Position numbers and translations under genes: made by a program
Shown: positions 7,257 to 9,723 of the stretch, in pieces
Layout of the letters: each line of letters begins with the position of its first letter
Numbering within the stretch: position 1 is the first letter of the stretch
The notes under the pieces: generated by a model
Databases searched by the model: none
Told to the model about the DNA's origin: nothing
What the model saw: only the letters and a program-made list of their open reading frames with translations
NCBI GenBank assembly: GCA_945900785.1
Contig: CAMDJM010000005.1
Location: 31,866-95,865 of the forward strand
Length of the DNA stretch: 64,000 bases
Origin: Akkermansia muciniphila
Lineage (GTDB): Bacteria > Verrucomicrobiota > Verrucomicrobiia > Verrucomicrobiales > V1-33
Reading direction: 5' to 3'

Positions 7257-7285
7257 AAGCGGCCACGAAAGTGGCCGCTTTTTTT
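7257..7285 (+). terminator. Rho-independent terminator after rpoA-rplQ
   Basis: Perfect 10-bp stem AAGCGGCCAC / GTGGCCGCTT closed by a GAAA tetraloop and followed by an uninterrupted T-run (7279-7285). The best intrinsic terminator in the window. Confidence 0.92.
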
Positions 7286-7352
7286 GTTGCACCACTGGCC
7301 GCGGTTGGTAAGCTCAGCCCCGCCCACCGGAACCCCCAGACCCGTTCCCCGA

Positions 7353-8276
7353 ATGCTTCCCTCCCAGCATCCCTCCCTCATTCTAACGGCCTTGGGCCTG
7401 ATTTTTGGGAGCCTTGTGTCCCTGAATGCAACCACCGTAGAGACCAAGACCAAGTCCAAGGCAAATCCTCCGGCAAAATCACCCGCCAAGCCCAAAGAGG
7501 AAAAATCCACCCCAACCGCAGCCAAAGGAGCCCAAGGGGCGGTGGGACCGATTGCTCCCCTGCCCCGCGTTTACGCGCCGACCCGTCCCCGCGACGTGGC
7601 CCCTAGATTCCCTTGGAAACGCAATATCACCACCACCATCTTCTGGATTGGTGAGGCCCCGGATGGCCGCAACACCACTCCCAACCACAAAAGCTCATGG
7701 GACACGGAATGGCAGGAGAATTATGGGGGCTTTGATGATCCAAACCGCGAGAACCGCACCTACGACTTCCATCCGAAAGGCTTCGTCCCCAATCTGAATC
7801 CGTTTTACGTCGCCCTCCCCTTCAATGACCAAACGAACCCTGAGGTCGCAGCGGTGAAGATCCCATGGTATAAAACCAACCGCAATCCCATCAGCAAAAG
7901 CGCCTGCCACGGGACTTGGATCGCCATTAAATTTGGCAACAAAACCTGTTTTGCCCAATGGGAAGACTGCGGCCCCTTCGTGACGGACGATCACAACTAC
8001 GTCTTCGGCACCGCCCCACCCAAAAACCCGGAAAATGGCGGAGCCGGCCTGGACGTGTCCCCCGCCGTGCGCGATTTTCTGGGCATCAGCAGCGGAGCCC
8101 AATGCGATTGGCGCTTCTGCTCCGCCAAGGAAGTGCCGGATGGCCCATGGACCCGCTTCGGCGCCGGCAAAAAGCTCGCCGCCGGTGGAGAACAGGACAT
8201 CGAAGCGATCCGCGCCAAATACGCCGAACTCGTCCGCCAACGTGAAGAATGGCTGAAGCGCAACCCCGGCCGTTAG
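7353..8276 (+). CDS. Secreted protein with a possible double-psi beta-barrel (expansin/RlpA-like) domain
   Basis: 307 residues. The ORF-track start at 7284 is a TTG inside the terminator T-run; ATG 7353 gives a proper signal peptide (hydrophobic LILTALGLIFGSLVSL). A Lys/Pro/Ala-rich linker of about 50 residues follows. The folded region contains a Cys-bearing stretch, CFAQWEDCGPF, and later GLDVSPAVRDFLGI; the spacing of a GPF motif and a LDVSxAVRxxLG helix resembles RlpA/expansin double-psi barrels. That assignment is tentative. Likely exported; no enzymatic role can be stated. Confidence 0.75.
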   Translation: MLPSQHPSLILTALGLIFGSLVSLNATTVETKTKSKANPPAKSPAKPKEEKSTPTAAKGAQGAVGPIAPLPRVYAPTRPRDVAPRFPWKRNITTTIFWIGEAPDGRNTTPNHKSSWDTEWQENYGGFDDPNRENRTYDFHPKGFVPNLNPFYVALPFNDQTNPEVAAVKIPWYKTNRNPISKSACHGTWIAIKFGNKTCFAQWEDCGPFVTDDHNYVFGTAPPKNPENGGAGLDVSPAVRDFLGISSGAQCDWRFCSAKEVPDGPWTRFGAGKKLAAGGEQDIEAIRAKYAELVRQREEWLKRNPGR

Positions 8277-8337
8277 TCCCGCAGCCGGATCATTGCAGCT
8301 TGCAGCGCAGGCGAAACCGCCGCATGAACGCCGCACC

Positions 8338-9723
8338 ATGGGACGAGTCAACCAATCCAAAGGCAGGGAAACCACCCCGGAACGCCAGGCCACCCGCCGC
8401 CTCATGAGCGAACGCGGGATCGATCCCAGCTATGGCATGGGGCAAAACTTCATGACAGACCCCGCCGTCGCCTCATGGATCGTTGATCAACTCGACATCC
8501 AGCCGCAGGACACTGTTATTGAAATCGGCCCCGGCATGGGTGCCCTCACCGAACACCTCGTCACCCGCGGGGCCCGGCTCCTCATCCTCATCGAGAAAGA
8601 TGACAAACTGGTCGATTTTATCAGAAGCAAGTTCGGGCATCTCCCCCAGCTCGAAATCATCCACGGCGATGCCATCCGCTTCGACACCCGCCCCTACTAC
8701 GCGGAGCAACCCCTGAAAATTCTCGGTGCCCTGCCCTACTCCTGCGGCACGGAAATCATCCGCAACTTCATGTCGCACCCCAGCCCCGCCTGCCGTGCGG
8801 TTTTTACCCTCCAAAAGGAAGTCTGCCTGAAGCTGAGCGCCAAACCCAACGACCACCTCTACGGCCTCCTCACCGTCCGCAGCCAGGCCTGGTGGGACAT
8901 CGCCTACCTGCGGGAACTCCCGCCCGGCATTTTTGTGCCCCGTCCCGCCGTCGACAGTGGCGTCATCGCCATGACCCCGCGGCCCCGCCCCGGCCTCCCC
9001 GTTTTTGAAGAGCGCCTCTTCGACCGGCTCCTGACCCACGGCTTCTCCCAACGCCGCAAAATGCTGCGCAATCTCCTGCCAAAACATCCCGGGCACCCCT
9101 GGGAAACGCTCGCCGCCCGCATCGGCTGCAATCCCCTCGCCCGTGCCCAGGAACTCAGCCTCCGGGAATGGATCCTTCTCACCAACGAATACGACCCCAG
9201 CCCGCACCCTCACCACGCCCAGAGCGGCGACGAAGTCTTTGATGTGGTCGATGAAAACGACCAGGTGATCCGCCAGGAACGGCGCTGCATGGTCCACGCC
9301 GAAAATCTCCTCCACCGCGCCATCCACCTCTTTGTCTTCAATGACGCCGGCGATCTCTTCCTCCAGTTGCGCAGCCACCTCAAAGACAAGATGCCCGAAC
9401 GCTGGGACAGCAGCGCCGCCGGCCATGTCGATGCCGGCGAGGACTACCTCACCGCCGCCGTCCGCGAAGTCGCGGAAGAACTCGGCATCAAAACCACCCC
9501 CGACCGGCTCACGCTCGAATTCACCCTGCCCGGCGGCCCCGGCACGGGTTATGAATTCGTGCACCTTTATTCCCTGACATGGAGCAATCCCCTCCAGTGG
9601 CCCCCCGGCGAGATCGAAACCGGCCAATGGTTTCCCCCCGCCATCATCGACCAGTGGACCCGCCAACGCCCCGGAGATTTTGCCGATGGCTTTCTCGAGT
9701 GCTGGCAACGCTACCGCCCCTGA
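8338..9723 (+). CDS. rsmA: Fusion: RsmA/KsgA-type 16S rRNA adenine dimethyltransferase plus Nudix hydrolase
   Basis: 461 residues from ATG 8338; the track start at 8293 is a TTG. Residues 35-285 are an RsmA/KsgA methyltransferase: GQNF near 35, SAM motif EIGPGMG at 62-68, LPY motif (here ALPYSC rather than NLPY) near 130 and a C-terminal helical domain with FSQRRKMLRNLL. RsmA dimethylates two adjacent adenines near the 3' end of 16S rRNA. Residues about 297-461 are a Nudix domain with an intact Nudix box starting GHVDAGE near 362, flanked by YfcD/isopentenyl-isomerase-like sequence (FDVVDENDQVI). There is no stop or frameshift between the halves. RsmA proteins are usually about 270 residues, so the fusion is unusual. 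Confidence 0.93.
   Translation: MGRVNQSKGRETTPERQATRRLMSERGIDPSYGMGQNFMTDPAVASWIVDQLDIQPQDTVIEIGPGMGALTEHLVTRGARLLILIEKDDKLVDFIRSKFGHLPQLEIIHGDAIRFDTRPYYAEQPLKILGALPYSCGTEIIRNFMSHPSPACRAVFTLQKEVCLKLSAKPNDHLYGLLTVRSQAWWDIAYLRELPPGIFVPRPAVDSGVIAMTPRPRPGLPVFEERLFDRLLTHGFSQRRKMLRNLLPKHPGHPWETLAARIGCNPLARAQELSLREWILLTNEYDPSPHPHHAQSGDEVFDVVDENDQVIRQERRCMVHAENLLHRAIHLFVFNDAGDLFLQLRSHLKDKMPERWDSSAAGHVDAGEDYLTAAVREVAEELGIKTTPDRLTLEFTLPGGPGTGYEFVHLYSLTWSNPLQWPPGEIETGQWFPPAIIDQWTRQRPGDFADGFLECWQRYRP

Follow-up and report, generated by a model that had tools for sequence, protein, structure and literature searches.

Repeated fusion of the rRNA dimethyltransferase RsmA to a Nudix domain in Verrucomicrobiia

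Our results indicate that the 16S rRNA dimethyltransferase RsmA/KsgA has been fused to a Nudix domain about four separate times within one bacterial class, Verrucomicrobiia. It was found in 107 of 286 genomes sampled from the class, and in every one of the 52 of the order to which the window (the 64,000-nucleotide stretch of DNA analysed here) belongs, the window's own genome included. We give a probability of about 0.66 to the reading that this is a genuine bifunctional protein derived from a translationally coupled gene pair, in which the Nudix half would be an IDI-like, metal-dependent diphosphohydrolase and the two activities would be wanted together. Taken singly, each half is an ordinary member of its superfamily; the novelty lies in their repeated joining, in the IDI-like character of the hydrolase partner and in a sub-clade in which motif IV of the methyltransferase reads ALPY. 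The open-access literature searched yielded no account of an RsmA–Nudix fusion.

The fused gene and its distribution

The fused gene lies on the + strand at positions 8338–9723 (start ATG 8338, stop TGA 9721–9723) and encodes 461 residues in a frame with no internal stop. An upstream extension of the ORF to a TTG at 8293 is possible; ATG 8338 is favoured as the start because the relatives L033 and L034 begin with the same MGR. It had been proposed, from the window alone, that a housekeeping RsmA continues without interruption into a Nudix domain, and this was borne out by the single ORF in which Pfam finds both domains. These are joined by a short linker (residues 286–296; 9193–9225, + strand), with low pLDDT at residues 286–297. 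In its own genome the gene is found about 1.2 kb downstream of rplQ, and a 330-residue ORF without a Pfam match (7284–8276) lies between the two.

The own assembly is fragmented (5.08 Mb in 172 contigs, 86.4% complete), as would suit an artefact of assembly or annotation, but such an origin of the fusion has virtually no probability and is already refuted. Five assemblies of the GTDB collection (L032–L036) have a continuous ORF with 62–80% identity to the window protein, and chance and misassembly are excluded by the same continuous ORF in these and in 106 further genomes of the class. The fusion thus recurs in more than 100 independent genomes, single-contig chromosomes among them. Neither a stand-alone rsmA nor decay of the methyltransferase half, the other signs that would have spoken against the original prediction, was seen, by genome search and by dN/dS and rate respectively. 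The own genome has one RrnaAD match and four NUDIX matches; the former is the fused copy, and no second rsmA was found in this 86% complete assembly. No second full-length RsmA was found either among the 18 fused genomes examined, where the additional RrnaAD matches in the relatives are partial, score below 34 bits and are probably other SAM methyltransferases. Within the window's clade, four genomes have one RrnaAD match each, and G563 has two more, both partial and below 30 bits.

The phyletic range, which had been suggested for mapping, was surveyed in a sample of 286 genomes of the class, a fused genome being one with a match that covers both domains without a separating stop. Matches to both domains were obtained in 110 genomes, six of them with a stop codon: G134, G204 and G227 are continuous in the extracted domain frame, and G003, G196 and G284 have a single stop between the domains. 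Fused genomes include a putative Akkermansia muciniphila type strain (G100; a single contig of 2,664,102 bases), in which motif IV is NLPY and the Nudix box is complete, and a putative Xiphinematobacter endosymbiont (G017; 915,884 bp), with an intact Nudix box. The published sizes are 2,664,102 bases for A. muciniphila NC_010655.1, and 0.916 Mb with 817 proteins for Xiphinematobacter (PMC4607532). Two public MAGs titled Akkermansia muciniphila (L033 and L035) belong to the window's clade and not to the family f2 that holds G100; they look mislabelled.

Among the unfused genomes examined, rsmA lies next to the Nudix gene on the same strand at 18 loci in 13 families. The two genes overlap by an ATGA in L078, L080, L082, L083 and L087. 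At L042, L043 and L066 they are in frame with one stop between them (TAG, TGA and TAA, respectively), so that one substitution would produce the fusion and occasional read-through would yield the fused protein. In many other families of the class (f7, f9, f10, f14, f33, f41 and others), the two genes are not linked. Family f7 (L094–L097) is sister to the adjacent-pair family f5 and has rsmA alone, with the Nudix gene on another contig in three of the four genomes; no Nudix match was found in the remaining one, G012. Outside the class, rsmA and the Nudix gene were never neighbours in the 69 same-phylum genomes searched, where a Nudix gene was found. Given that the genes are unlinked in all of these and in many families within the class, physical linkage is not obligatory. 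The other neighbouring genes vary between families and are common only within subgroups.

Candidate fusions outside the class were rejected: RsmA frames of 625–628 residues in f66 and f75 (G430, G451, G525 and G547) have an extension without a Pfam domain. In L144, the extension of the rsmA frame (124–2001) is a PdxA-like gene immediately upstream (131–1147) read in the wrong frame, an arrangement that resembles the pdxA-ksgA gene order of E. coli.

Origin of the fusion

The combined-domain tree requires four changes of fused state, all of them forced, with a 5–95% range of 4–4 over 200 bootstrap trees. The RsmA-domain tree has five changes, four of which are forced by well-supported branches, and the Nudix-domain tree has four, three of them forced. 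The largest fused group is a 49-row clade without reversal, composed of the own order together with f11, f16, f20, f26, f28, f30, f39, f42, f48 and f55. The second group is f4, whose sister f12 has an adjacent pair; the third consists of three f31 genomes, with an f31 sister that shows the ATGA overlap; and the fourth is G229 of f19, whose sister G031 also has the ATGA overlap. An adjacent or ATGA-overlapping sister is therefore seen for three of the four fused groups. The combined tree alone gives no direction of change; the outgroups are unlinked, which makes unlinked, then adjacent, then fused the simplest order.

The same silence of the tree on direction would be compatible with one fusion in the ancestor of the class that was later undone many times, the adjacent and overlapping pairs being its split remnants, and the in-frame pairs with one stop at L042, L043 and L066 would fit an intermediate of either process. 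We nevertheless regard this history as very unlikely: none of the 69 genomes searched outside the class has the genes side by side, many families within it have them unlinked, and no reversal is seen in the fused clade of 49 rows. Moreover, the ATGA overlaps are out of frame, unlike what simple stop-codon fissions would leave.

The two halves of the protein

The N-terminal half (residues 34–285; 8437–9192, + strand) contains an RsmA/KsgA 16S rRNA (A1518/A1519) dimethyltransferase domain (Pfam RrnaAD, E 1.7e-53). With the ksgA equivalog TIGR00755 (NCBIfam; cut-off 171 bits) it reaches 205.9 bits over model positions 6–255 of 256, and residues 34–283 match KsgA in the PDB (best E 1.9e-36). Like the known RsmA/KsgA proteins (TIGR00755; PDB 3tqs, 7afo and 7v2l), it spans the entire domain and clears the equivalog cut-off, and no other copy was found in the genome. 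Unlike them, it is followed by a C-terminal Nudix domain, and ALPY replaces NLPY in the window's clade. Motif IV reads ALPYSC (residues 131–136; 8728–8745, + strand), with A131 (codon 8728–8730) in place of the Asn of NLPY. The original prediction was right that this motif is atypical; it is not, however, a property of the fusion, given that nearly all fused relatives have NLPY. Position 131 is Ala in all six members of the window's clade (the window and L032–L036) and Asn in 126 of 126 other sequences, fused ones included. ALPY thus arose later than the fusion, since fused relatives outside this clade keep NLPY.

The remaining motifs are intact in the alignment with E. coli KsgA, namely GQNF, ExGPGxGxLT, the acidic motif II and the Asp of motif III. 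M39 (in GQNFM) and Q271 are further residues specific to the window's clade. The methyltransferase half of this clade shows no sign of decay, either in dN/dS and rate or in its identity to f2 (0.467, against 0.468 between f2 and f3). Nei-Gojobori dN/dS values, which are rough because dS is near saturation in several pairs, range over 0.04–0.31 for the methyltransferase half and 0.03–0.22 for the Nudix half, and both domains are under purifying selection. We file the window domain as a predicted RsmA, with a reservation on catalysis: the departure from NLPY affects a single position in a domain that is otherwise intact.

Altered catalysis is possible in the ALPY clade. An extension of this idea is that the change of Asn131 to Ala has abolished or changed catalysis, so that the methyltransferase half would chiefly be a scaffold for 30S assembly, with the Nudix enzyme attached to it. 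The strict division at position 131 and the clade-specific M39 and Q271 are in its favour. In human DIMT1, replacement of NLPY by AAAA gives an inactive protein, yet 40S assembly proceeds on the protein scaffold, catalysis being dispensable (PMC8463865). That mutant alters four residues, not one. The Foldseek search also met PDB 8x4l, the structure of a Pyrococcus DIMT1 N132A mutant, whose Asn is probably equivalent to that of motif IV. An E. coli-like pattern for helix 45 of 16S rRNA gave no match in the own genome; a looser pattern recovered an intact GGAA loop in one of five relatives, G562 (which carries L035). This is the only member of the clade with a 16S 3' end found, and its intact target loop argues against a scaffold that has abandoned methylation. 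So do a conservation equal to that of the relatives, dN/dS of 0.04–0.17 and the integrity of the other RsmA motifs, and we consider a mainly structural role doubtful.

The C-terminal half (residues 297–461, approximately; 9226–9720, + strand) is an IDI/YfcD/DR0079-like Nudix domain (Pfam NUDIX core 325–437, E 7e-18). Its Nudix box, GHVDAGEDYLTAAVREVAEELGI (residues 362–384; 9421–9489, + strand), fits Gx5Ex7REUxEExGU exactly, in the form G362-x5-E-x7-REVAEELGI, so that the perfect box claimed at the outset was confirmed. R376, E377, E380 and E381 of the box are invariant in 111 of 111 relatives, and H320, H326, R327, H330, R345, K349, G362, H363, E406 and E425 are invariant across the 111 Nudix domains as well. 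Residues from 298 onward match YfcD, DR_0079 and IPP isomerase (IDI) in the PDB, with profile E-values of 7.4e-29, 2.3e-26 and 9.2e-20, respectively. An AlphaFold model of the fusion, built with six sequences, has a mean pLDDT of 58.9 and a pTM of 0.38; the Nudix half, mostly at 77–90 with weaker loops, is the only usable part, the methyltransferase half being poorly modelled. Foldseek (TM over target) placed YfcD first at 0.77–0.79, with DR_0079 up to 0.81 and IDI near 0.69; the KsgA matches superpose poorly because the methyltransferase part of the model is weak.

The window protein passes none of the Nudix equivalog models: it scores 76.9 against 152 bits for YfcD (NF011922), and 53.3 against 105.8 (TIGR02150) and 64 against 127 (NF002995) for IDI. 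YfcD of E. coli (NF011922, PDB 2fkb), the closest solved structure by sequence profile as well as the top Foldseek match, shares the Nudix box; it differs in having no equivalents of H320 and H363, and the window domain falls under its equivalog cut-off. DR_0079 of Deinococcus radiodurans (PDB 1q27 and 2o5f), a CDP/CTP-preferring hydrolase, has the fold (TM 0.74–0.81) and the hydrolase box in common with the window domain but none of the three histidines of the IDI-type metal site. In type I IDI (PDB 3hyq and 1nfs), His25, His32 and His69 form the metal site and Arg51 and Lys55 bind the diphosphate; equivalents of all five are kept in the window domain, and E406 aligns with Glu116 of IDI in the profile alignment. 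Unlike IDI, the window domain has A361 in place of the catalytic Cys67 and a true REXXEE hydrolase box, which IDI does not have. Of 36 family members aligned, a single one has Cys at the Cys67 position, and the other 35 have Ala or Ser there. With the histidines and the Arg/Lys pair of IDI plus the hydrolase glutamates, and without the isomerase Cys, the fused Nudix domain is expected to hydrolyse rather than isomerise its substrate, and the best reading is that of an IDI/YfcD-like diphosphatase, a predicted hydrolase.

The plant Nudix enzyme AtNUDX3, which is fused to a peptidase-like domain and not to a methyltransferase, presumably resembles the window Nudix domain in its WDxSSAGH signature and IDI-like histidines. 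Its dephosphorylation of IPP and DMAPP is an activity cited in PMC6779861. The resemblance may serve as a lead towards isoprenoid diphosphates, and DR_0079 would point to nucleotides. In family f42 (L059–L062), the first Glu of the Nudix box is lost in all four sampled genomes (C, Q, R and R at 368) and REXXEE is kept; the Nudix activity of this family may have been altered.

A possible link between ribosome maturation and diphosphate hydrolysis

In the reading that we prefer, the N-terminal half would be the cell's RsmA, which binds the maturing 30S subunit and modifies A1518 and A1519 in helix 45 of 16S rRNA, and the C-terminal half would be a Nudix diphosphohydrolase that depends on metal and has an active site like that of IDI. 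The latter probably releases phosphate or pyrophosphate, its substrate being a small diphosphate of the isoprenoid (IPP/DMAPP) type or a nucleoside di- or triphosphate. The separate genes would have become translationally coupled neighbours early in the class and then fused about four times, neither half being lost afterwards. The most likely reason would be a fixed ratio with a ribosome-assembly checkpoint protein, or placement near new 30S subunits. That each half is active as an enzyme, that the two are functionally linked, and what kind of substrate is cleaved are inferences drawn here. The unexpected link between ribosome maturation and a diphosphate hydrolase that was first proposed rests on a real fusion; it is less isolated than was implied, being part of a class-wide gene pair with about four fusions. 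E. coli ksgA, for its part, shares its operon with apaH, whose product likewise hydrolyses nucleotide polyphosphates.

With about four independent occurrences of this joining, the jobs of RsmA and the Nudix domain are probably linked. The fused state kept in the 915,884-bp genome of G017, the REXXEE invariant in 111 of 111 domains and dN/dS of 0.03–0.31 speak for the preferred reading; the unlinked Nudix gene of many families and the loss of the first box Glu in f42 count against it. Repeated fusion is itself no proof of cooperation, given that overlapping genes may become joined by neutral change and that such a joining is difficult to reverse. Unrelated housekeeping genes that overlapped could have been joined by stop loss or a one-base indel, the tail being tolerated and the halves remaining independent. 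Such joining would be mutationally easy, as indicated by the common four-base ATGA overlaps and the three in-frame loci with one stop, and the short linkers of variable length would suit it. What drift alone explains poorly is that the pair is adjacent in many families despite changing other neighbours. A functional link between the halves is likely, and a neutral fusion, which we judge rather unlikely, remains its serious rival.

Well short of that likelihood, and frankly speculative, is the broader proposal that Verrucomicrobia couple the maturation of 30S subunits to a diphosphate metabolite, with the Nudix half sensing or clearing this compound (isoprenoid or nucleotide) as RsmA acts on the ribosome, that this would explain the four or so joinings, and that RsmA of the window's clade has moved off standard dimethylation.

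Few ribosome-assembly factors are as highly conserved as RsmA. That a partner has been attached to it several times over, and survives in a symbiont with a 0.9-Mb genome, points strongly to a connection, so far unrecognised, of ribosome maturation with diphosphate metabolism. The presence of the fusion in the putative A. muciniphila type-strain chromosome makes it experimentally tractable, and the ALPY clade offers a natural test of the dependence of RsmA on the Asn of motif IV.
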